This document shows positions 24,270 through 37,427 of a stretch of DNA of 64,000 nt, in pieces (position 1 is the first letter of the stretch; each line of letters begins with the position of its first letter). The translations under genes and the position numbers were made by a program. Origin of the DNA: Eubacteriales bacterium (GTDB lineage Bacteria; Bacillota; Clostridia; Oscillospirales; Oscillospiraceae); contig JAUNNH010000001.1 of assembly GCA_030531505.1 (NCBI GenBank), forward strand, positions 124,001-188,000. The letters are read 5' to 3'. Below the pieces are notes generated by a model, which saw nothing but the letters and a program-made list of their open reading frames with translations, did not search any database and had not been told where the DNA came from.

Positions 24270-24707
24270 ATGGAATTCAAGCGTTTTCTGATCCATAAGC
24301 TGAGTCTGTTTTTCATGCTGTCGACGCTGATCACGCTTGCGGTCTCCCTGCTCGGCACCGCCTTCGACAGCGGGGCCCGTTTCGGCTACGACACGCTGCT
24401 GACGCCGATCAAATACGCGGCGCTCTGCCTGCTGCCGACCTTTGTGACCTGGTCGCGGCATGAGCTCTCGCTGAAGGCGCTTCTCCTGCGCAAGGCGCTG
24501 ATGCTCGCCCTCATCGAGGCGGAGATCCTCCTGATCGCCTTCACGAGCCCTGCCATTGACACCGAAAATCCGCTGGTCGTCCTCAGCCTCGCGGGGAGCG
24601 TGCTCGTTATCTTCGTGCTGGCCAATTTCCTGACATGGATGCGGGAGACCGCAGAGGCGAAGAAAATGAATCTCGACTTGGCACGCTTCCAGAAGCTCCA
24701 TGAGTGA
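24270..24707 (+). CDS. DUF3021 membrane protein, partner of the LytTR regulator
   Basis: 145 residues with four predicted membrane helices (about 11-31, 46-66, 72-95, 104-125) and a charged C-terminal tail (EAKKMNLDLARFQKLHE). It follows the LytTR gene by four bases and is the usual second gene of this module. The next gene begins about 25 bases after its stop. Confidence 0.9.
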   Translation: MEFKRFLIHKLSLFFMLSTLITLAVSLLGTAFDSGARFGYDTLLTPIKYAALCLLPTFVTWSRHELSLKALLLRKALMLALIEAEILLIAFTSPAIDTENPLVVLSLAGSVLVIFVLANFLTWMRETAEAKKMNLDLARFQKLHE

Positions 24708-24732
24708 TCACGGAGAGAAGGAGAGGATGACA

Positions 24733-25212
24733 ATGTACAGCTTTATCCATTATCCGTCCCCGCAGGGAACGCTGACGGTCGCAGAGGAAAACGGCGCTCT
24801 GACGGCGCTGGTGATCGAGGGGCAGAAGTATGCCGACCGGCATCTGGCCGGAGAGGGGCGGGAAGAGGAAACGCCCGTCCTCCGCGCGGCCGCGCGCTGG
24901 CTGGACGATTACTTCGCCGGAGAGAACCCGGACCCGACTGCCCTTCCGCTCTCACCCAAGGGTACGGCATTTCAACTGCGTGTTTGGCGGGAGCTGCGGC
25001 GCATCCCCTATGGAGAGACCGAGAGCTACGGCGCGCTGGCCGCACGTCTCGGCAGCTCCGCGCGGGCGGTCGGCAGCGCCGTCGGACGCAACCCGCTTTC
25101 CATCCTGATCCCCTGCCACCGCGTCCTCGCGGCGGACGGCAGCCTGACCGGTTATGCGGGCGGGCTGGAGAACAAAGCGAAGCTGCTGCGGCTGGAAGGG
25201 AGCCTCGGCTGA
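24733..25212 (+). CDS. ogt: Methylated-DNA--protein-cysteine S-methyltransferase
   Basis: 159-residue suicide repair enzyme that takes alkyl groups from O6-alkylguanine. The active site PCHRV holds Cys128, and the DNA-binding helix has the SYGALAARLGSSARAVGSA pattern with its Arg finger. The N-terminal Ogt/Ada-like domain (1-75) is present. Start at 24733 follows AGGAG by nine bases; ATG 24727 is possible. Confidence 0.94.
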   Translation: MYSFIHYPSPQGTLTVAEENGALTALVIEGQKYADRHLAGEGREEETPVLRAAARWLDDYFAGENPDPTALPLSPKGTAFQLRVWRELRRIPYGETESYGALAARLGSSARAVGSAVGRNPLSILIPCHRVLAADGSLTGYAGGLENKAKLLRLEGSLG

Positions 25213-25435: not shown

Positions 25436-26269
25436 TTATTTTGCGACGGAGGAGTGGATCCAGAGAAATTTCGCCTTCCGCCTGGAGGGGTTCCACCAGC
25501 TGTGCAGATCGGAGCCGCGGTAGTAGAAGGAATCGCCCGCGTGCAGCACATAGGGAGGACCGTCGTTGATCCTCAGCTCCAGCGTGCCGGAGAACATATA
25601 GATGAACTCCTCGCCGTTGTGGGTGTGGGGCGATTTATTGCCCGAGCCAGGCTGTACCTCGCAGAGCACGGGATACATGATGTGATCGCGCATGGCCACC
25701 AGTGAATGCATATCGATCCCGGGGTCGCCGTTGAGATCGAGCGGATCACCGCTGCCTTTCTCCACCAGATGCTTTTCGTCCCGTACGGGCTCGAGGAAGT
25801 ACAGCGGGCTCTCGCCGTAGAAGTGCGCCAGGTCGCGCAGCAGCTCGAGTGAGACATTGCCCCCGTTTTCCAGCTTGCTCAGATGAGCCACCGAGATGCC
25901 GACACCGTGGCTCACATCCTCAAGCGTGTAGCCCTTCTGCTTGCGCAGCTCGCGCCATTTCTCGCTTGTCAGCCTCTTGGAGTATTGCTTCTCCGCCTGC
26001 TGGCGGATGCTCTCCTCAAAATCACTGGAGCCTTCGCCGCCGCCCAGCAGGAGCTTGATGGCCTGCGCGCCCATGTGCTTGTCGATAGAGTACTCCTTGA
26101 CGCGCCGCAGCGTCGCCAGGTCATCAACGGTGAAGATTCGGTAGTTGCTGTCCGAGCGCTTGACGCTGATCAGCCCGGCCTTTTCCCAGTTGCGGATGGT
26201 GCCGGGCACCACGCCCAGCATTTTGGCCACCTGACTGATGGAAAATGTAATACTGTCGTTATGATCCAT
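25436..26269 (-). CDS. MerR-XRE-cupin three-domain transcriptional regulator
   Basis: 277 residues. A MerR-type winged HTH (about 9-76: ISQVAKMLGVVPGTIRNWEKAG) comes first, then a Cro/CI-type HTH (about 104-160: WRELRKQKGYTLEDVSHGVG) and a C-terminal cupin_2 domain (about 198-272: PHTHNGEEFIYMFSGTLEL). Start set at ATG 26269, because the -10 box covers the upstream TTG. Cupins in XRE-cupin regulators bind small metabolites. With two different DNA-binding domains it is unusual. It lies directly downstream of the acyl-CoA synthetase/aminotransferase operon on the same strand but with its own promoter, and probably controls that catabolic region. Confidence 0.92.
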   Translation of the reverse strand: MDHNDSITFSISQVAKMLGVVPGTIRNWEKAGLISVKRSDSNYRIFTVDDLATLRRVKEYSIDKHMGAQAIKLLLGGGEGSSDFEESIRQQAEKQYSKRLTSEKWRELRKQKGYTLEDVSHGVGISVAHLSKLENGGNVSLELLRDLAHFYGESPLYFLEPVRDEKHLVEKGSGDPLDLNGDPGIDMHSLVAMRDHIMYPVLCEVQPGSGNKSPHTHNGEEFIYMFSGTLELRINDGPPYVLHAGDSFYYRGSDLHSWWNPSRRKAKFLWIHSSVAK

Positions 26270-26301
26270 AAAAACCAGAATCCTTCGCACTTTATAAAAC
26301 A

Positions 26302-26361
26302 ATTCTACGGGATATGGAATGAATTGTCAAGAAAAACCCCCGTGCCGGAGCACGGGGGTTT
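26302..26361 (-). promoter_or_regulatory. Back-to-back terminator and promoter
   Basis: Terminator stem AAACCCCCGTGC/GCACGGGGGTTT (26334-26361), read on the minus strand into TTTTTC, ends the acyl-CoA synthetase gene. The next bases on that strand are TTGACA (26325-26330), a 17-bp spacer and TAGAAT (26302-26307), the promoter of the cupin regulator gene. Confidence 0.85.
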
Positions 26362-26369
26362 GCCATTTG

Positions 26370-29213
26370 TCAATCGCGGCGGATGCGTCCGTCAACGGCG
26401 AAGAAGCCCTGCCGTTCGGGATCATAGATCAGGGGGTTGATATCCATCTCCTGGATCTCCGGGTGATCGAGCAGGAGCTGGTTGACGCAGTAGAGGATGC
26501 GCAGGAATTTGGCCTTGTCCACCGGGGCGCTTCCGCGGTAGCCGTCCAGCAGCCGGGCGCAGCGCAGGGAGGAGAGCATCTCCTCGGCGTCGGTCGGGCT
26601 CAGCGGGACATGGCCGATCGCCACGTCCTTCAAAACCTCCACCAGCGTGCCGCCCATGCCGGTCAGGATGCTGTGGCCGAGTGCGGGATCCACCGAGGCG
26701 CCGATGATCATTTCGAGCGAACCGGAGACCTGCTGCTGCACCTGAATACCGCGCAGGCCGGGGAACTTCTCCGTCCACTCCGCGAGCAGCGCGCCGAGTT
26801 CCTCCGCGCTTCCAACGCCGAGCCGCACGCCGCCCACGTCGGATTTGTGGACGATGTCGGGGTGGTCGATCTTGGCGACGACAGGATAGGGCAGCGCCAG
26901 CGCGGCCGGATCCCCGCCGCAGGGGAGATAGGCGCTGGCAGCCACCGGGACGCCATAGAGCGCGAGGAGACGGAAGCAGTCGTCCGGGGCGAGATAGGCG
27001 CCGCGCGGCGTATGCGCGAGGATGGCGTTGGCCTCGAGACGGGCGTCCAAGCTGAGCTGGTTTTCAAAGGCGAAGGGCTCACGCTTCGGCTTCTCCACCA
27101 TATAGGCCATCGTGCGGACCATCTGATCGGGGAAGGAGAAGGTGGGGATGCCGCCCTTCTTCATCACGGCGCGCCCCTTGGCGCCGAGGTTCGGGCCGAA
27201 GAAGCAGGAGAAGATCGGGGTGTCGGTGGAGTTGAGGATATCGACCATGGCCTGCGCCACCTCGCCGGTATCGATCAGCGCGGGCGGGACGCAGTCGACG
27301 ATGATCGCGTCGTAGCGGCCGCTGTCGATCATGGCGTGGGCCGCGGCGGCATAGTGGGCCGGGGGCGCGGGAGCGACCAGGTCCAGCGGATTGTGGGTGG
27401 AGGCCTCCGGCAGAAGCTGCGGCGCCAGAGCCGCCTGCTCTTCGGTGCTGAGCTCCGGCAGTTCGAAACCGTACTTGACCAGCACGTCGGTCGTGAGCGT
27501 GCCGAGACCGCCGGCGTTGGAGATGATACCCACGCGCTTGCCCTTGATGCGCGGCATCTTGCCCATGGCGGAGGCCAGCAGGAAGGCGTCCTCCAGGTTC
27601 TCGGCGCGGATCACGCCGCACTTGCGCAGCAGCGCGTCGGCGACGTTGTCGTTGCAGGCCATGCTGCCGGTGTGGGAGCTCGCGGCCTTCGCGCCGGCGG
27701 CGGTACGGCCGGACTTGACCATAATGACGGGCTTGGTCATCCGGGCCATGACGCGCTCGAAGCGATAGGGCTCGGGGAGCGTCTCCATATACATGCAGAT
27801 GAGCTCGGTGTTTTCGTCCTCCTCCAGCATGGGAAGCAGGTCGCAGGGGTTGATGTTGGCCATATTGCCGAGGGAGACCACGACACTGAAGCCCACGTCC
27901 AACTCATCGGCAAAGTCGATCAGGCTCGCACCGAGAGCGCCGGACTGGGTCAGGAAGGCGACGTGGCCCTTGCGGGGGGACTTGTCGAGGATCGTGGCGC
28001 TCAGACGCACGCGGTCGTTGGTGTTCGCGAGGCCCATGCAGTTGGGACCGGTGACACACATGTTGTATTTGTCCACGATCTCGAGGAGCTTCCGCTCGCG
28101 CTCCACGCCCTCGCCACCGACCTCGCGGAATCCGGCGGTGATGCAGATCATGGCCTTGACGCCCTTTTTCCCGCAGTCCTCCGCGACGCTCAGAACGCCG
28201 GCGGAAGGGACGGCGAGCACGGCGGTGTCCACCGTGTCGGGGATGTCCAGCACCGAGCTGTAGCCGGGCACGCCGTGGACAGGCTCACCCTTGCGGTTGA
28301 CCGCGTAGAGCCGGCCGGTGTAGCCGAGCTCCAGCATGTTGTGGACGATGGCGTTTCCCATACCCGGACGAGAGGAGGCGCCGATGACCGCTACGGAGTC
28401 CGGGTAGAACAGCTTCGTGCGGTCCCGCTCAAAAAAAGGTTTGTTCTCTTCCCAGCTCTCAAAGCAGAGCCCGGTGGGCGCAGGCGCGCCCTTGTAGAAG
28501 AGGCGGCCTTCCTCGTCGGTGGTGAAGTTGCCGAGCGCGAGCTCCAGCACGGTGCGTGCGCCGACCAGACGGGCCTGATCGTTGACGAGCTTCAGGTAGT
28601 GGCGGAAACGCTCCTCCTCATCGGTGAAGAGACTGTAATCCACCGGCACCTTGGGGGAACGGACCAGCAGAGGACCTGCGTCCAGCTCCTTGGTGGCGAT
28701 ATGGGAGCTCGCGCGCAGATAGTCCATATTATAGGAGAAGGCGGACTTGATGCCGTTGGCCCCGGCGAGAAGACGGTGCCCGTCCTCACCGGTGACGGCG
28801 AGATCGGCGGGATGCACGTTCACGACCGTGTAGCGGTCGAGCACGGCGTCGGTGGTGGCCCAGACATAACCGGCCAGCAGGATCATGTCGGCCTGGAAGG
28901 GCTCGACCTTCTCCAGCACTTCGCGGTCGAACTCCGCCCGGACTTCACGGTCCTTGAGAGGCTTGTTGCGATCGGCGTAATACTGGCGGATGTCGACCGC
29001 CACATAGGGCACGCCATAGGCCTGCGCGGTTGCGACGGCCTTGGAATCCGGCTTATCGGCGAAAATGCCGACGATTTCGAAGGGGCAGCCCTCCGGCATC
29101 TTCTCCATTTCTTTCTGGAGCTCGTAGGCCTTCCACAGCGTATTGCCGGAGCCGGAGCAGTAGCCCAGGACACGCAGCTTGCCGCGGGCGGGGTCGATGA
29201 TGGGTTTCAGCAT
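26370..29213 (-). CDS. Formyltransferase-ADP-forming acyl-CoA synthetase fusion
   Basis: 947 residues in two parts. Residues about 13-245 form a PurN/Fmt-type formyltransferase domain with GSGNT (21-25), LLAGY (112-116) and the catalytic set Asn132-x-His134 (NVHP) and Asp178 (KELDAGP), all matching glycinamide-ribonucleotide formyltransferase. Residues about 265-947 form a complete NDP-forming acyl-CoA synthetase: CoA-binding Rossmann domain (VAVIGASSRPGMGN), flavodoxin-like domains with phospho-His514 (SSHTGS), and an ATP-grasp domain (about 720-940, HKSDVGGVRLG). The ligase half would make ATP from acyl-CoA, ADP and phosphate, or the reverse. What the formyltransferase half does is unknown. 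A GAGGAA site precedes the ATG; the gene lies 26 bases after the aminotransferase in one operon. Confidence 0.93.
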   Translation of the reverse strand: MLKPIIDPARGKLRVLGYCSGSGNTLWKAYELQKEMEKMPEGCPFEIVGIFADKPDSKAVATAQAYGVPYVAVDIRQYYADRNKPLKDREVRAEFDREVLEKVEPFQADMILLAGYVWATTDAVLDRYTVVNVHPADLAVTGEDGHRLLAGANGIKSAFSYNMDYLRASSHIATKELDAGPLLVRSPKVPVDYSLFTDEEERFRHYLKLVNDQARLVGARTVLELALGNFTTDEEGRLFYKGAPAPTGLCFESWEENKPFFERDRTKLFYPDSVAVIGASSRPGMGNAIVHNMLELGYTGRLYAVNRKGEPVHGVPGYSSVLDIPDTVDTAVLAVPSAGVLSVAEDCGKKGVKAMICITAGFREVGGEGVERERKLLEIVDKYNMCVTGPNCMGLANTNDRVRLSATILDKSPRKGHVAFLTQSGALGASLIDFADELDVGFSVVVSLGNMANINPCDLLPMLEEDENTELICMYMETLPEPYRFERVMARMTKPVIMVKSGRTAAGAKAASSHTGSMACNDNVADALLRKCGVIRAENLEDAFLLASAMGKMPRIKGKRVGIISNAGGLGTLTTDVLVKYGFELPELSTEEQAALAPQLLPEASTHNPLDLVAPAPPAHYAAAAHAMIDSGRYDAIIVDCVPPALIDTGEVAQAMVDILNSTDTPIFSCFFGPNLGAKGRAVMKKGGIPTFSFPDQMVRTMAYMVEKPKREPFAFENQLSLDARLEANAILAHTPRGAYLAPDDCFRLLALYGVPVAASAYLPCGGDPAALALPYPVVAKIDHPDIVHKSDVGGVRLGVGSAEELGALLAEWTEKFPGLRGIQVQQQVSGSLEMIIGASVDPALGHSILTGMGGTLVEVLKDVAIGHVPLSPTDAEEMLSSLRCARLLDGYRGSAPVDKAKFLRILYCVNQLLLDHPEIQEMDINPLIYDPERQGFFAVDGRIRRD

Positions 29214-29239
29214 GTTAGATTCCTCACTTTATAGAAAAC

Positions 29240-30433
29240 TTATTTCAGATACTCGTTGATCGCCTCGGCCAGGATCTGGATGCCGCGCTCGATGTTCTCC
29301 TTGGAGGGCGTGGAATAGTTCAGACGGAAGGCGGGGCAGGGGGCGCTGTCGTTGACCATGAAGGAGCAGCCGGGCACGAAGGCGACGCCCTTCCTGGCGG
29401 CCATGTTGGCGAAGTCCAGGCTGTCGTAGCCCTCGGGCAGCGAGCACCAGAGGAACAGACCGCCGTCGGGGTGGGTCCAGGTCACGCGCTTGTCGACATA
29501 CTTGTCGAGGCAGCTGAGCATGAAATCGCACTTGTCGCGGTAGATGCCGCGGATCTTCTCGATGTGCGCGGGCACGTCATAGTGGCGGAAAAACTCGTCG
29601 CAGACCATCTGGAAGAAAATGTTGGTATGACAGTCGCCGCCCTGCTTGGCGATGATGAGCTTCTGGATGATGGGCTTCGGGGCGCAGATGAAGCCGATGC
29701 GCATGCCGGCGGAGAGCACCTTGGAGTAGGAGCCGTTGTAGACAACGAGCCCCTCGGTGTCCATGGACTTGATGGTGGGCACGTCCTCGCCGCGGAAGCG
29801 CAGCTCACCGTAGGGGTTGTCCTCCAGGATGATGATGCCGTGCTTTTTGCAGAGCTCATACACGTCCTTGCGGCGCTGCAGGCTCATGGTGGAGCCGCGG
29901 GGATTCTGGAAGGTGGGGATCAGATACAGGAGCTTGACGTTCTTCTGCGTCCGGACGGCCTCCTCCAGCAGGTCCATGCGGATGCCCTCGTCGTCCATTT
30001 CGATGCCGACGACGTTGGCGCCGTTTGACTTCATGGCGATGATGCCGCTGACGAAGGAGGGGCTTTCGACGATCACGGTGTCGCCGCGGTTGATGAGCAC
30101 CTCGGGCGTCATGTAAAGGCCCTGCTGGCCGCCGGTAGTGATGATGACGTCGTTTTGCTCGGTGTCGATGCCGAAGACGTCGTGAAGACGCTGCGCCGTG
30201 ATCTCGCGCAGGGGACCGTAGCCTTCGGTCACGCTGTACTGCAGGGACTGCAGCGCACGCTCGCGGAAGATCTTCTCGGAGATCTCGTGGATCGCCTCCA
30301 CGGGGATCGCTTCATTGGACGGGCTGCCGGTGGAGAGGGAGATGATGCTCGGGTTCGCGGCCACCATTTTCAGGATCTCGCGGATCGCGGAGGGCTTGAC
30401 GCTGGAGATGTTGTCGGAGAAGGTGTAGTTCAT
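29240..30433 (-). CDS. PLP-dependent class I/II aminotransferase (2-aminoadipate/aromatic type)
   Basis: 397 residues with fold-type I PLP motifs: NPYGELRF substrate/cofactor segment, YNGSYSKVLSAGMRIGF with the Schiff-base Lys, and the terminal arginine region PAFRLNYS. The start ATG 30433 has AAAGGAG 8 bases upstream. The N-terminal style (FSDNISSVKPSAIREILKM) is that of the LysN/ARO8-like aminotransferases that take 2-aminoadipate, leucine, aromatic or other bulky amino acids. It is the first gene of the operon with the fused acyl-CoA synthetase, suggesting conversion of an amino acid to a 2-oxo acid. Confidence 0.93.
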   Translation of the reverse strand: MNYTFSDNISSVKPSAIREILKMVAANPSIISLSTGSPSNEAIPVEAIHEISEKIFRERALQSLQYSVTEGYGPLREITAQRLHDVFGIDTEQNDVIITTGGQQGLYMTPEVLINRGDTVIVESPSFVSGIIAMKSNGANVVGIEMDDEGIRMDLLEEAVRTQKNVKLLYLIPTFQNPRGSTMSLQRRKDVYELCKKHGIIILEDNPYGELRFRGEDVPTIKSMDTEGLVVYNGSYSKVLSAGMRIGFICAPKPIIQKLIIAKQGGDCHTNIFFQMVCDEFFRHYDVPAHIEKIRGIYRDKCDFMLSCLDKYVDKRVTWTHPDGGLFLWCSLPEGYDSLDFANMAARKGVAFVPGCSFMVNDSAPCPAFRLNYSTPSKENIERGIQILAEAINEYLK

Positions 30434-30494
30434 GACAAGAACTCCTTTCATGCTTTTTTTCCGTTGAAACATCCGTGTTTCTCTCGCTGTTAAC

Positions 30495-30523
30495 AGTATA
30501 TCAAGGGGCGGAAAACTTGTCAA
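30495..30523 (-). promoter_or_regulatory. Promoter of the aminotransferase-synthetase operon
   Basis: Minus strand TTGACA (30518-30523), 17-bp spacer, TATACT (30495-30500). Divergent from the promoter at 30728; the 355-base gap between the two start codons holds no other gene that I can support. Confidence 0.8.
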
Positions 30524-30727
30524 TCCGCTTGGTAAGCTTAGGAAAAGAGGCGTACAGGACAGGAAAACGCCTGTTTCCGGCATTGTGTCAAAAAAGAGGA
30601 GACGTTTTTTGTCGCTTTAGCCGGCACTTGCCGGGCAACGGGGAATTATCCTGTGCCAACTGCACAAAAGACAGCCTGTATTTTTATCGAAAACAGGGAA
30701 TCGATTCTTTTAACATTAACTCAAATG

Positions 30728-30756
30728 TTGACAAGGTTTGCGGCGTATAGTATTGT
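30728..30756 (+). promoter_or_regulatory. Promoter of the second acyl-CoA synthetase operon
   Basis: TTGACA (30728-30733), 17-bp spacer, TATTGT (30751-30756), about 33 bases before the ATG at 30789. Confidence 0.75.
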
Positions 30757-30788
30757 TTGAGATGAACAGTAGAAGGGGGAGGATCGCT

Positions 30789-32870
30789 ATGCTTTCCGAC
30801 GGCTTCTTTTTTCCGGGATCCGTTGCGATCATCGGTGCCTCCGAAACGCCCGGCCGCATCGGCAGCGGCCTCTATAAGAGCATGCGCCCCTGCGTGGAGA
30901 CCCTCTGGTGTGTGAACCCCAACCGGGAGACGCTGTTCGGGGAGCCCTGCTACCGCTCCGTGGAGGAGCTGCCGGGTCGGCCGAGCCACGCCTGGATCGC
31001 CGTGCGGCGGGACCTGGTGCTGCCGTATCTGCGCGCCTGCGCGGCGGCGGATATCCGCAATGTCGTGGTCATCAGCGCGGGCTTCAAAGAGACAGACGCC
31101 GCCGGGGCCGCGCTGGAGCGGGAGATCTCTGTCCTCGCACAGCGGGAAAAGATGAACATTCTGGGGCCGAACACCCTGGGTTTTATCCATACCGGCATCG
31201 GCTTCAACGGGAGCTTTCTGCCGGCGGAATTTGAACGAGGCGGCATTTCCGTCATCAGCCAGTCCGGCGGCGTGGGCATGGCCCTGCTGGCCTCGCTGGC
31301 GGACCAGCGCTGCGGCGTCGCCAAATGGGTCGGCGTCGGGAACGAGGCCGGGATCACGGCCCTGGAGGTGCTGGAGTATCTTGCGGAAGATGAGGAGACG
31401 CGCGCGATCGCCGTATGCTTCGAGGGCCTGCGCGAGCTGCCGCGTTTTCTGCGCCGGGCGGCCGAGGTGAATCGGGTGAAGCCGGTCGTGCTCCTGCGTG
31501 ACGGGAAGAGCCGCGTGGGACTGCAGGCCGCCGCCTCCCATACCGGCGCGATGGTCTATGCAGGGAACGTGCTGCCCTCGTTGTTCAATCAGTTCGGGCT
31601 GCTGGAGGCCGCCTCCTGCCGGGACTGCGCTGTGATGCTCAAGGCCTTGAGCCTTGCGCCCCGCGCCGCGGGGGAGCGCGCTGTGCTGCTGACAAACACG
31701 GCCGGGCCCTCTGTGCTCGCGGCCGACCGGCTCGAGGAGCTGGGGGTAAGCCTGCCGCCCGTGCCGGAGACGTTGCGGCGGGAGATCGACGAGGAAGCGG
31801 GGATCCCAATGGGCCTCAAAAACCCGGCGGATATCTCCTCCAACGGGCTCGACCCGCGCAATTACGGCATTGCGGCGCGGCGCCTGCTGGCCAGCGAAAG
31901 CTACGATCTGCTGCTGGGCTTCTTCTCACTGAATGACCATTTGCGGCTGCCGGAAGAGCAGTTGATCGACGCGGCGCGCCTGACCGGGAAACCGGCCGTC
32001 GCCTGCTTTCTGTCCACACAGCGGCGTTTCGCCGCCTATCCGCTCACGCCGGAGCACGCGGGGATCCCCTGCTTCTGCGATCCGCAGGACGCCGCCGTCG
32101 CGGCGGCGGCCATCCTCCGCTACGGGGAGGCGCTGCGCCGGAAGGAGCAGGCGCCCCCGGCGCTGAAGGAGACGCAGGAGCAGGCCTGTGCGGCCTGGCT
32201 CGCGACCTTCGATGCGAAGGGTGGGGAACGGCTGCTCTCCGAACGGGAAAGCCGCGAGCTGCTGAGGCTCGCCGGCGCGGAGCTTACGGTGCCGCTGCGT
32301 GCCCTATCCGCGGAGGAGGCGGCCGAGGCGGCGGAATACTGTGGCTTCCCGGCCGCGCTGAAGCTCGAATCCCGGCACATCACACACAAGAGCGCCGTCG
32401 GCGGCGTGCGATTGCACCTGGCCTCGCGCGAGGCTGTGCTGGCCGCGGCGGAGGAGATGCTGCCTCGCCTGCGCGCGCTGGATCCGGATGCGGCGCTGAG
32501 TGTGCAGCCGATGGCGGGAGACGGCTTTGAGATGATCCTCGGCGCGGTGCGCTCGCCCCTGGGCGTGCTGTTGATGGCCGGCATGGGCGGGAGCTTCGCC
32601 GAGTCTATCGGGGACGACGCCTTCTGCGCGCTCCCTGCCGGGCGGGAGGACATGCGCCGGATGCTGCGTGCCCTGCGCTGTGCGGGCGTTCTCTATACGC
32701 CGGACGGGACACCGCTTCTGGATGAGGCGGGGCTGCTGGATCTGCTGGAGATCCTTGCCGGGCTGATGGCGCACTTCCCGCAGATCGCGGAGCTGGAGAT
32801 CAATCCCTGTCGTGTGGCAAAAGACCGTGTGAGCGTGCTGGACGCCCGGACGGTCCTGAGATACGAATAA
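30789..32870 (+). CDS. ADP-forming acyl-CoA synthetase (acetate-CoA ligase family)
   Basis: 693 residues. CoA-binding Rossmann domain (about 8-130, VAIIGASETPGRIGSGL), two flavodoxin-like subdomains with SQSGGVG (158-164) and phospho-His251 (AASHTGAMV), then the ATP-grasp half (about 490-690) with HKSAVGGVRLHL. The start at 30789 was chosen for the GGGGAGGA site six bases upstream. It converts an acyl-CoA plus ADP and Pi to the free acid, CoA and ATP in fermentation, or activates the acid. It shares only the ligase part with the minus-strand fusion, lacking a formyltransferase domain. Probably cotranscribed with the DRE-TIM gene 26 bases downstream. Confidence 0.94.
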   Translation: MLSDGFFFPGSVAIIGASETPGRIGSGLYKSMRPCVETLWCVNPNRETLFGEPCYRSVEELPGRPSHAWIAVRRDLVLPYLRACAAADIRNVVVISAGFKETDAAGAALEREISVLAQREKMNILGPNTLGFIHTGIGFNGSFLPAEFERGGISVISQSGGVGMALLASLADQRCGVAKWVGVGNEAGITALEVLEYLAEDEETRAIAVCFEGLRELPRFLRRAAEVNRVKPVVLLRDGKSRVGLQAAASHTGAMVYAGNVLPSLFNQFGLLEAASCRDCAVMLKALSLAPRAAGERAVLLTNTAGPSVLAADRLEELGVSLPPVPETLRREIDEEAGIPMGLKNPADISSNGLDPRNYGIAARRLLASESYDLLLGFFSLNDHLRLPEEQLIDAARLTGKPAVACFLSTQRRFAAYPLTPEHAGIPCFCDPQDAAVAAAAILRYGEALRRKEQAPPALKETQEQACAAWLATFDAKGGERLLSERESRELLRLAGAELTVPLRALSAEEAAEAAEYCGFPAALKLESRHITHKSAVGGVRLHLASREAVLAAAEEMLPRLRALDPDAALSVQPMAGDGFEMILGAVRSPLGVLLMAGMGGSFAESIGDDAFCALPAGREDMRRMLRALRCAGVLYTPDGTPLLDEAGLLDLLEILAGLMAHFPQIAELEINPCRVAKDRVSVLDARTVLRYE

Positions 32871-32895: not shown

Positions 32896-34119
<1,224 letters not shown>

Positions 34120-34196: not shown

Positions 34197-35564
34197 ATGG
34201 ACAACAAGAAACCCCGTGAACAATGGTCGGGGCGTCTCGGCTTCGTTCTCGCTACAGCGGGCTCGGCGGTCGGCCTCGGCAACATCATGAAATTCCCGTG
34301 GATGACGGGACAGAACGGCGGCGCGGCATTCCTCTTCACCTACATCGTCATCATGCTGATCGTCGGTATCGGCATGCTGATCTGCGACTTCCTGATCGGC
34401 CGCAACGGCAAAGCCAACGCCGTCGCGTCCTACCGCAAGCTCCTCGGCAACGGCCACTTCACCTGGATGGGCTACCTGGGCATCTTCAGCGCCATGCTGG
34501 CCCTGGCTTACTACGCGGTGTTCGGCGGCTGGATGCTGCACTACATCATCAATTCCTTCACCACCCTGGCCCACATCGACCCCGCTGCTGTCGGTGACTT
34601 CTTCGGCGGCGCAGTCAGCGCGGTCTGGACCCCGATCCTCGGCACCTTCATCTTCCTGGCGATCACTGTCATCATCGTCTGCGGCGGCGTCAAGAAGGGC
34701 ATCGAGGCGGCCAGCAAGTTCATGATGCCGGCTCTGATCATCATCCTGATCGTCCTGATCTTCCGCGCCGTCACGCTTCCCGGCGCCGGCGAAGGCATCA
34801 AGTACTACCTGAAGCCCGATCTGTCCAAGATCACGCTCCCGGTCATCGCGGCGGCCGTCGGCCAGTGCTTCTTCTCCCTGAACGTCGGCACCACCGGTAT
34901 GGTCAACTACGGCAGCTACCTGAGCGACGACGAGGACGTGTTCAAGTCCACCATGCAGGTGGCCTTCACCGACTTCGGCGTGGCCTTCTTCGCGGGCCTC
35001 ATCATCATCCCGAGCGCCTTTGCTTTCAGCATCGACGTCGGCTCCGGCCCGGGCCTGCTCTTCGTCACCATGCCCTCCCTGTTTGCGCAGCTCCCGGCGG
35101 GCGGCTTCTTCTGCTTCCTGTTCTTCGTGCTGCTGCTCTTCGCTTCCCTGACCTCGTCCGTCTCGATCCTGGAGATCTTTGTCCCCTTCATGACCGAGAC
35201 CTTCCCCAAGACCTTCAACCGCACCAAGGCCTCCATCCTCGGCGGCATCATCTGCCTGGTGCTCGGCATCCCCGTGAGCCTGAGCTTCGGCATCTGGGGC
35301 GACGTCCGGATCCTGGGGCAGGACATCTTCAGCCTGTATGACAACTTTATCTGCATCTTCGCCTATCCTCTGATCGCCCTCTGCACCGCCATCATCGTCG
35401 GCTGGGTCTGGGGCAAGAAGAACGCGCTGGATGCGATCTCCAACCATGGCAAGCTCGGCCACCGGAAGGTCTACGATGTGTGGTTCTTCCTGGTCAAGTT
35501 CGTCTGCCCGATCCTGCTGCTCGTGGTCGTCATCACCGGCCTGAAGAGCTTCTTCGGCTTCTGA
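34197..35564 (+). CDS. SNF-family Na+-dependent amino acid transporter
   Basis: 455 residues, about 11-12 membrane helices. Helix 1 carries the LeuT/NSS signature LATAGSAVGLGNIMKFPW, where the unwound stretch binds Na+ and substrate. AGGAGG lies eight bases before the ATG. It should import a neutral amino acid. Its place after the DRE-TIM gene, with the aminotransferase nearby, suggests it brings in the amino acid fermented by the cluster. The gap of 77 bases from the previous stop holds no obvious terminator. Confidence 0.94.
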   Translation: MDNKKPREQWSGRLGFVLATAGSAVGLGNIMKFPWMTGQNGGAAFLFTYIVIMLIVGIGMLICDFLIGRNGKANAVASYRKLLGNGHFTWMGYLGIFSAMLALAYYAVFGGWMLHYIINSFTTLAHIDPAAVGDFFGGAVSAVWTPILGTFIFLAITVIIVCGGVKKGIEAASKFMMPALIIILIVLIFRAVTLPGAGEGIKYYLKPDLSKITLPVIAAAVGQCFFSLNVGTTGMVNYGSYLSDDEDVFKSTMQVAFTDFGVAFFAGLIIIPSAFAFSIDVGSGPGLLFVTMPSLFAQLPAGGFFCFLFFVLLLFASLTSSVSILEIFVPFMTETFPKTFNRTKASILGGIICLVLGIPVSLSFGIWGDVRILGQDIFSLYDNFICIFAYPLIALCTAIIVGWVWGKKNALDAISNHGKLGHRKVYDVWFFLVKFVCPILLLVVVITGLKSFFGF

Positions 35565-35678: not shown

Positions 35679-35750
35679 GAAAGTGGAAAAAAATCCACTA
35701 ACCTTAATAAAATCAATATCAAGATGATGAAAAACACAGGAGGGACCAGC

Positions 35751-37427
35751 ATGAGCTTTAAATCCGATATCGAGATCGCCCAGAGCTGCGAGAAACAGAA
35801 GATCACCGCGATCGCGGCGCGCGCCGGGATCGACGAGCGTTATCTGGAGCAGTACGGCAGTTATAAGGCCAAGGTAGACCTGAGCCTGCTGCGGGATCTG
35901 GCAGACCGGCCCGACGGCAAGCTGGTCCTTGTGACCGCGATCACCCCCACCCCTGCGGGCGAGGGCAAGACCACGACCAGCGTGGGGCTGGCCGACGGCC
36001 TGCGGAAGATCGGCAAGAATGCCGTTGTGGCGCTGCGCGAGCCCTCGCTCGGCCCCGTGTTCGGCATCAAGGGCGGCGCGGCCGGCGGCGGCTATGCGCA
36101 GGTCGTCCCCATGGAGGACATCAATCTCCATTTCACCGGCGACTTCCACGCCATCGGCGCGGCCAACAACCTGCTGGCTGCCATGCTCGACAACCACATC
36201 CAGCAGGGCAACGCCCTCGGCATCGACCCTAAGGCCATCACCTGGAAGCGCGCGGTGGATATGAATGACCGGCAGCTGCGCCACATCGTGGATGGTCTCG
36301 GCGGGCGCATGCAGGGCGTGCCGCGGGAGGACGGCTTCGAGATCACGGTCGCCTCAGAGATCATGGCGGTCCTCTGCCTTTCCTCCGGCATCCTCGATCT
36401 GAAGGAGCGCCTCGCACGCATCATCGTGGGCTACACTTACGACGGGCGGCCCGTCACCGCGCACGACCTCAAGGCCGAGGGCGCAATGGCCGCGCTGCTG
36501 AAGGACGCGATCAAGCCGAACCTTGTGCAGACCCTCGAGGGTACGCCGGCCTTCATCCACGGCGGCCCCTTTGCGAACATTGCCCACGGCTGCAATTCCA
36601 TCATGGCGACGCGCCTTGCCCTCAAGCTCGGTGACTACGCCGTCACCGAGGCCGGCTTTGCCGCGGACCTCGGCGCGGAGAAATTCATGGACATCAAGTG
36701 CCGTGCCGCGGGCCTGCACCCCTCCGCGATCGTGATCGTCGCGACGGTGCGCGCGCTCAAGTACCACGGCGGCGTGCCGAAGGCGGAGCTTAACCAGGAG
36801 AATCTGGAGGCGCTGGAGAAGGGCCTGCCCAACCTGCTGCAGCACGTCAGCAATGTGCGCGAGGTCTTCGGCGTGCCCTGCGTCGTCGCGGTCAACGCCT
36901 TCCCGACCGACACACAGGCGGAGCTGGAGCTGGTGGAGAAGAAATGCGCTGAGCTCGGCGTGAATGTGGCGCTCAGCGAGGTCTGGGCCAAGGGCGGCGA
37001 GGGCGGCATGGCCCTGGCCGAAGAGGTGGTCCGCCTCTGCGAGCAGCCCAACGACTTCCGCTTCGCCTATGAGCTCGACACCTCGATCGAAGAGAAGCTG
37101 GAGACGATCTGCCGCAAGGTCTACCACGCCGACGGCGTGGTGCTCGACGCCAACGCGAAAAAGCAGCTCAAGCAGCTCACGGATCTGAGCTTTGACAAGC
37201 TGCCCATCTGCATGGCCAAGACACAGTATTCCTTCTCCGACAACCCTGCCCTGCTTGGCGCGCCGAAGGGCTTCACCGTCACGGTGCGCAACCTCAAGGT
37301 CTGCGCCGGCGCCGGCTTCCTCGTCGCCCTGACCGGTGACATCATGACGATGCCCGGCCTGCCGAAGGTCCCGGCCGCCGAGAAGATCGACGTGGACGAA
37401 AACGGTGTCATCACGGGCCTGTTCTGA
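35751..37427 (+). CDS. fhs: Formate--tetrahydrofolate ligase
   Basis: 558 residues; makes 10-formyl-THF from formate, THF and ATP. The P-loop [16 protein letters not shown] (about 68-83) and the long conserved stretch [24 protein letters not shown]... characteristic of the enzyme are present, and length fits the family. The start ATG 35751 follows GGAGG; an upstream in-frame ATG at 35724 is less likely. It stands alone between a terminator and its own promoter, but its product is the usual cosubstrate of PurN-like formyltransferases such as the fused domain encoded at 26370-29213. Confidence 0.97.

Follow-up and report, generated by a model that had tools for sequence, protein, structure and literature searches.

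Which reaction could require a formyltransferase and an ADP-forming acyl-coenzyme A (CoA) synthetase in the same polypeptide? The question is raised by a gene in a 64,000-nucleotide stretch of an Oscillospiraceae genome (Eubacteriales bacterium, GCA_030531505.1, contig JAUNNH010000001.1, positions 124,001 to 188,000; hereafter the window), part of a draft assembly that is 73.94% complete and 4.36% contaminated. The original prediction, made from the sequence alone, had described a 947-codon frame joining a PurN-like formyltransferase to an acyl-CoA synthetase, and had left the joint reaction among several possibilities. Here we report that the fusion belongs to a conserved family, that its near-constant genetic partner is an isopropylmalate-synthase-like protein with an altered active site (hereafter the HMGL-like protein), and that two alternative entry modules recur at its loci. 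The fused protein could be a two-site enzyme of 2-oxo-acid fermentation.

A formyltransferase-like domain joined to an acyl-CoA synthetase

The gene is read on the minus strand from an ATG at 29213 to a stop codon ending at 26370 and, in agreement with the predicted architecture, encodes four Pfam domains, all above their curated cut-offs (Table 1). From the N terminus these are Formyl_trans_N (residues 39-192, 36.5 bits against a cut-off of 26.1), CoA_binding_2 (71.4 against 22.8), Succ_CoA_lig (147.2 against 27.4) and ATP-grasp_5 (176.7 against 27.6), with a Ligase-CoA domain marginally below its cut-off between the last two (22.7 against 23.7 bits). An antisense open reading frame (ORF) of 971 amino acids (aa) on the plus strand (26319-29234) covers the whole gene and was taken as a shadow of the coding strand.

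Residues 268-944 align with the 4-hydroxybutyrate--CoA ligase 8wzu over nearly the whole length of 8wzu, pairing His514 with H256 and His789 with H535, which an excerpt of PMC11494057 gives as the two phosphohistidines of that ligase. With its CoA-binding, Succ_CoA_lig and ATP-grasp_5 domains and both phosphohistidines, this half is, judged by domains and residues, a complete ADP-forming acyl-CoA synthetase, as had been proposed from His514 and the ATP-grasp domain; His789 had gone unnamed. The two phosphohistidines are common to the fusion and 8wzu. Compared with ADP-forming acyl-CoA synthetases (8wzu, 4xyl and 9y43, and the protein acetyltransferases 9isq and 9it0), the fusion differs by its additional N-terminal formyltransferase, and its synthetase half scores below the cut-offs of the NCBIfam models nearest to it, which are ADP-forming CoA ligases.

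The fusion is a conserved family

The original prediction had suggested mapping the lineages and neighbours that carry this architecture. We scanned genome contigs with a two-sequence alignment of the N-terminal domain (N-domain), which returned 30 loci, of which 29 were kept; locus counts below refer to 30 loci (the window's and these 29), uncorrected for kinship, and carrier-genome counts to 27 genomes. The locus dropped, from Aquimarina (L066), is 25% identical over residues 63-183 only and was taken as an ordinary PurN/PurU-type protein. By record titles, the further loci come from Oscillospiraceae, Ruminococcaceae, Lachnospiraceae, Clostridia, Mogibacterium, Cuneatibacter, Lactonifactor, Sedimentibacter, Acidaminobacter, Soehngenia, Acetomicrobium, Synergistaceae/Synergistales, Spirochaetaceae and Candidatus Sumerlaeota, so that the family spans Bacillota, Synergistota, Spirochaetaceae and one metagenome-assembled genome (MAG) labelled Sumerlaeota.

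The gene is rare. A strong N-domain match was found in 1/120 genomes of the window's family, 1/295 of its order and 2/398 of its phylum, the window's own genome included in these three, and in 15/185 Synergistota; it is absent from two congeners. A further 52 genomes of the family gave weak matches (at most 45.5 bits and 34% identity), which were taken as ordinary PurN/PurU-type proteins and left uncounted. Matches in plasmid records reached 23.9-29.7% identity among the matches listed (20 of 34 records), the annotated ones being purN or purU, and a scan of viral contigs for close relatives found none.

In the family alignment, 24 of 26 rows are fused (full length, window included), and His514 and His789 are invariant across these 24. 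Four more unbroken fused proteins occur in further Synergistota genomes. These fused proteins show that the fusion is a conserved family and not the accident of one assembly. Conservation of the N-domain equals or exceeds that of the rest of the protein: for the Sumerlaeota copy (L048), identity is 59% over the N-domain against 52% for the whole protein. In one Synergistota genome (G851, L092, 6780-9613) the fusion is broken into frames of 726 and 184 aa, through an assembly error or a real split.

The two unfused rows, L058 and L065, end at residue 257-258 with no synthetase after it, a variation that the original prediction had missed, as it had the HMGL-like partner. The tree places them apart, each nested among fused relatives, so the synthetase half was probably lost on two occasions. 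The L058 genome encodes one relative of the fused synthetase elsewhere (33% identical), and a search of the L065 genome for such a relative found none. At L065, the second gene downstream of the formyltransferase is class III CoA-transferase-like, below every model's cut-off, and perhaps a CoA thioester is still handled there. The formyltransferase thus does not depend on fusion to the synthetase.

The N-domain resembles PurN without being one

The N-domain was modelled with AlphaFold2 (AF2; mean pLDDT 92.8), and the 30 best Foldseek hits of the model are all PurN structures, with TM scores by target length of 0.70-0.87, at least 0.80 in 21 of the 30. The profile match above cut-off and the PurN-matching fold place the domain in the Formyl_trans_N superfamily. 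Its nearest NCBIfam model is also PurN, at 51.7 bits against the TIGR00639 cut-off of 150.1, far short of a PurN equivalog.

The N-domain alignment holds 27 rows, the window and 26 loci. L061-L063 were left out, being gene starts at contig ends (83 residues in L062 and L063, from Spirochaetaceae); the L051 copy is cut after 702 residues. Invariant in all rows are S20-G-S-G23, T25, R92, W118, H134, P135, D137, L138, D178, G180 and P181. The "whole catalytic set" of Asn132, His134 and Asp178 claimed for the window protein is present there, at the positions given, and fails as a family trait: His134 and Asp178 are found in 27/27 rows, whereas 19 rows have Asn at position 132 and the other 8 have Gly, the Gly rows forming a single supported clade of Synergistaceae in the tree. 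When aligned with E. coli PurN, in what we take to be its numbering, Trp118 stands in place of Arg90 in every row, Arg92 matches Arg64 and is kept, and so is the DxGP pattern. The domain has in common with PurN the fold, the SGSGxT loop and the His134 and Asp178 pair, and departs from it in its low identity (18-24% in the 30 best hits), its variable Asn, its Trp for Arg90 and its fusion. These features make folate use by the N-domain likely.

HypX provides a precedent for a catalytic set reduced to His and Asp. As excerpts of PMC6802093 describe it, HypX keeps the His and Asp, has the third triad residue replaced and uses an additional Asp, and formyl-tetrahydrofolate (formyl-THF) and CoA are proposed to yield formyl-CoA. 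Like the fusion, HypX joins a Formyl_trans_N-type domain to a CoA-using domain and retains His and Asp. The partner differs, being in HypX an enoyl-CoA-hydratase fold thought to release CO and here an ADP-forming synthetase. Moreover, the HypX N-domain is compared in those excerpts with FDH, FMT and ArnA, whereas ours is nearest PurN. By its sequence, the fusion protein is neither a PurN equivalog nor HypX and falls outside the substrate-specific ligase models tested; it may be seen as a HypX-like fusion logic made from other parts.

The HMGL-like protein is the strongest partner

Clustering of the genes around the fusion found an HMGL-like gene in 27/30 loci. At L037 the gene is present and masked by a shadow ORF, which can mislead the scripted choice of ORFs; for L048 it lies on another contig, and for L051 none was found in the genome. 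In all, 26/27 carrier genomes encode the protein. Among 185 Synergistota genomes, 15 carry the formyltransferase, 15 the HMGL-like protein and 14 both (hypergeometric 6e-19, uncorrected for kinship), at a threshold of E 1e-150 that was set after seeing the carrier results (main hits at 1e-180 or better, paralogs at 1.5e-131 to 3e-90 in four carriers). All five Synergistota carriers outside the model-building set have the protein, and in the window's phylum (398 genomes) the 2 that carry the one also carry the other. Altogether, the HMGL-like protein is the strongest, near-constant partner of the formyltransferase.

The nearest solved relatives of this protein are homocitrate, isopropylmalate and methylthioalkylmalate synthases (Foldseek 6ktq, TM 0.85). 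D39, H221 and H223, which we take to be divalent-metal ligands, are present in 25/25 rows, and R38 and T194 are also invariant; these residues and the fold are common to the isopropylmalate and homocitrate synthases, and a 2-oxo acid probably still binds. What the protein lacks is the catalytic pair of these synthases, a Glu and a His that enolise acetyl-CoA for the Claisen reaction: the aligned positions are Ala or Ser and Pro, respectively, in 25/25 rows, which argues against a normal acetyl-CoA condensation. The AF2 model (mean pLDDT 83.3) falls below 50 at residues 299-315, beside the replaced His.

Relatives of the protein also occur in other settings. The window genome has a second HMGL-like copy (C40:292943-294166; L068 7923-9167) with a TRAP transporter and an SDR gene, and no formyltransferase in the 17 kb covered. 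One Synergistota genome (G972) has an HMGL-like protein without the formyltransferase; its copy (L091) lies with TRAP genes and an SDR gene in a cluster resembling L068, so part of the HMGL group may work without a formyltransferase. In the Sedimentibacter genome of L047, a distant relative (L073 4639-10647) stands beside M20 peptidase-family, galactarate/altronate dehydratase-family, phosphate butyryltransferase-like and acetate-kinase-family genes, suggesting an ability of HMGL proteins of this kind to feed an acyl-CoA.

Two alternative entry modules point to a 2-oxo acid

An aminotransferase is encoded at 17/30 loci, a D-2-hydroxyacid dehydrogenase at 7/30, and both at none (Fisher 8e-4, uncorrected for kinship); four of the six loci with neither (L051, L060, L061 and L062) are cut by contig ends. 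All 11 loci with a symporter have the aminotransferase and all 7 with the dehydrogenase have TRAP genes, while two loci (L041 and L064) combine the aminotransferase with TRAP genes, L041 also with the symporter. Both types occur in more than one phylum by record titles, and at L093, on a 1.97-Mb contig, a GntR regulator, the fusion, the HMGL-like gene, the aminotransferase and the symporter are consecutive. As either enzyme leads to a 2-oxo acid and the two never co-occur, the modules point to a 2-oxo acid as their common product. This supports the amino-acid setting first proposed, as a conserved amino- and 2-oxo-acid locus.

The aminotransferase of the window is nearest, among solved proteins, to PH0207 (an aminotransferase II homologue) and to 2-aminoadipate and kynurenine/aminoadipate aminotransferases, and the symporter to 4us3 (presumably MhsT) and LeuT. 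This kinship suggests hydrophobic or 2-aminoadipate-like amino acids. One locus stands apart: on either side of the fusion of L048 (3388-15524) lie hydantoinase, N-carbamoylase/allantoate-amidohydrolase-like, Asp/Glu/hydantoin racemase, chlorohydrolase-family and cysteine-synthase-like genes, a combination with no counterpart among the other loci listed.

The fhs gene, which according to the original prediction makes the expected formyl donor 10-formyl-THF, is the next gene after the HMGL-like gene and the symporter in the window, L038, L039 and L047, the last from Sedimentibacter. Formate--tetrahydrofolate ligase (FTHFS) is encoded in 24/27 carrier genomes, in six of these as pieces only. With fhs at 4/30 loci and FTHFS in most carriers, 10-formyl-THF is a reasonable partner.

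A two-site enzyme and its rivals

From the architecture, the conserved catalytic residues, the genetic linkage and the two entry modules described above, we infer a reaction that would link both halves. In our proposal, to which we give a probability of about 0.4, the fusion is a two-site enzyme that serves a fermentation of 2-oxo acids dependent on folate and CoA: its N-domain passes formyl between 10-formyl-THF and CoA, and its synthetase makes ATP from a CoA thioester of the same route. Outside amino acids would enter through the sodium symporter and the aminotransferase, and 2-hydroxy acids through the TRAP transporter and the D-2-hydroxyacid dehydrogenase, both giving a 2-oxo acid. The HMGL-like protein would cleave this metal-bound acid or condense it with a CoA thioester. 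The N-domain would shuttle the one-carbon unit between 10-formyl-THF and a thiol; the thiol would most likely be CoA, giving formyl-CoA, as proposed for HypX. Through His514 and His789, the synthetase would convert one of the pathway's CoA thioesters, either formyl-CoA or the leftover acyl-CoA, to acid and ATP. CoA as the acceptor, formyl-CoA as a shared intermediate, the direction and the substrate are all part of the conjecture.

A narrower version, which we consider unlikely and put forward tentatively, makes formyl-CoA the working intermediate: the HMGL-like protein would join or split formyl-CoA and a metal-bound 2-oxo-acid enolate, and the fused enzyme would pass the formyl among formyl-CoA, 10-formyl-THF, and formate plus ATP. 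A partner such as formyl-CoA, which lacks an alpha carbon that could be deprotonated, would allow the loss of the acetyl-CoA-enolising Glu and His.

Several observations weigh against the two-site proposal. L058 and L065 lack the synthetase half and retain the formyltransferase and the HMGL-like protein, so an intermediate common to both halves is not required. FTHFS in 24/27 carriers would make an outlet from formyl-CoA to formate plus ATP redundant. Folate binding is not assured, given Gly132 in 8/27 rows and the Trp for Arg90, and a formyl step is not obvious for hydrophobic amino acids or 2-aminoadipate. Finally, the formyltransferase occurs without a detected HMGL protein in one Synergistota genome (G802), and HMGL relatives occur in TRAP loci without a nearby formyltransferase (L068 and L091).

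The main rival is simple tethering of two steps, in which formyl would pass between 10-formyl-THF and an acceptor other than CoA, namely an amine or enolate belonging to the 2-oxo-acid route. Independently of this, the synthetase would make ATP from the ordinary acyl-CoA of the same fermentation. We regard this as possible, if on the unlikely side. The two probable losses of the synthetase, each surrounded by fused relatives in the tree, favour it, as do the class III CoA-transferase-like gene that replaces the synthetase in L065 and the phosphate-butyryltransferase-like and acetate-kinase-family neighbours of the HMGL relative in L073. However, tethering leaves unexplained why fusion is the rule (24/26 aligned rows) and why the HMGL-like protein has lost the acetyl-CoA-type pair.

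The chemistry could instead take place on an amino acid borne as a CoA thioester, with the synthetase forming an aminoacyl-CoA and the N-domain formylating or deformylating its amino group. In its favour, the N-domain retains the PurN-like SGSGxT loop, the L048 copy stands among hydantoinase and N-carbamoylase-like genes and, to our knowledge, PurN-fold enzymes other than HypX place formyl on nitrogen or water. Nevertheless, such neighbours were seen at L048 only, and an aminotransferase or dehydrogenase, conserved at the loci, suggests that the substrates lack the amino group, which makes this route distinctly unlikely.

Recovery of ATP from a formylated intermediate, raised by the original prediction, would run from 10-formyl-THF, ADP and Pi through formyl-CoA to formate and ATP as a substitute for FTHFS. 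The catalytic parts suffice on paper and FTHFS was not found in 3/27 carriers, but these three are MAGs that may be incomplete, the route would repeat an activity that most carriers have and that four encode at the locus, and the HMGL-like protein would be left without a role; we consider it improbable. An N-domain outside folate chemistry, transferring another acyl group or merely sensing a ligand, would suit the change of Asn132 to Gly in one clade and of PurN Arg90 to Trp118 in 27/27 rows, and is equally improbable in view of the invariant His134, Asp178 and DxGP pattern, the kept Arg92, the PurN-matching fold and the FTHFS of most carriers.

Genes around the fusion in the window

Features of the locus are collected in Table 1; the names of gene clusters come from proteins of the window itself or from one representative per cluster. 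The aminotransferase probably starts at an internal ATG, and the real start of the unfused synthetase looks like the ATG at 30789, which is preceded by a purine-rich stretch. A 6-O-methylguanine DNA methyltransferase-family gene lies near the locus (24700-25212, plus strand).

Table 1. Fusion gene, its domains and residues, and neighbouring genes (window positions)
Feature	Position	Strand	Basis
Fusion gene, 947 aa, PurN-like formyltransferase and ADP-forming acyl-CoA synthetase	26370..29213	minus	frame, Pfam, solved-structure alignment
Formyltransferase domain, residues 1-262	28428..29213	minus	Formyl_trans_N match, AF2 model, Foldseek
His134, formyltransferase domain residue	28812-28814	minus	
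Asp178, formyltransferase domain residue	28680-28682	minus	
CoA-binding domain CoA_binding_2, residues 273-397	28023..28397	minus	Pfam
Succ_CoA_lig flavodoxin domain, residues 415-549, with predicted phospho-His514 (27672-27674)	27567..27971	minus	Pfam, alignments
ATP-grasp_5 domain, residues 739-945, with predicted second phospho-His789 (26847-26849)	26379..26999	minus	Pfam, alignments
Pyridoxal-phosphate (PLP) aminotransferase, 26 bp upstream of fusion, same strand	29240..30583	minus	Pfam; cluster C2 in 17/30 loci
MerR-HTH / HTH_3 / cupin regulator, directly downstream of fusion	25436..26302	minus	Pfam; cluster C3 in 16/30 loci
Second, unfused ADP-forming acyl-CoA synthetase, 710 aa as listed	30738..32870	plus	Pfam; 30% identical to fused one
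HMGL-like protein, 407 aa, isopropylmalate/homocitrate-synthase fold, altered active site	32896..34119	plus	Pfam, alignments, Foldseek
SNF sodium symporter	34197..35564	plus	Pfam, nearest solved relative 4us3; in 11/30 loci
fhs, formate--tetrahydrofolate ligase	35724..37427	plus	Pfam, NCBIfam; at locus in 4/30 loci

A possible junction of one-carbon and CoA metabolism

Formyl-CoA is known from oxalate metabolism and has been proposed in HypX, according to excerpts of PMC6802093. Among the titles and abstract openings of open-licence PMC papers, searches on the fusion architecture, on formyl-CoA with formyltransferases and on a pathway of the HMGL locus found no paper on such a fusion protein beyond HypX. 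The locus probably marks an undescribed route of amino- or hydroxy-acid fermentation. Its conserved enzyme could link formyl-CoA to folate and ATP while being genetically tied to an altered isopropylmalate-synthase-like enzyme, an idea that is directly testable in the named carrier strains Lactonifactor longoviformis DSM 17459 and Cuneatibacter sp. NSJ-177. If true, this would be a new junction of CoA metabolism with one-carbon metabolism in anaerobes of the gut, the rumen and elsewhere.

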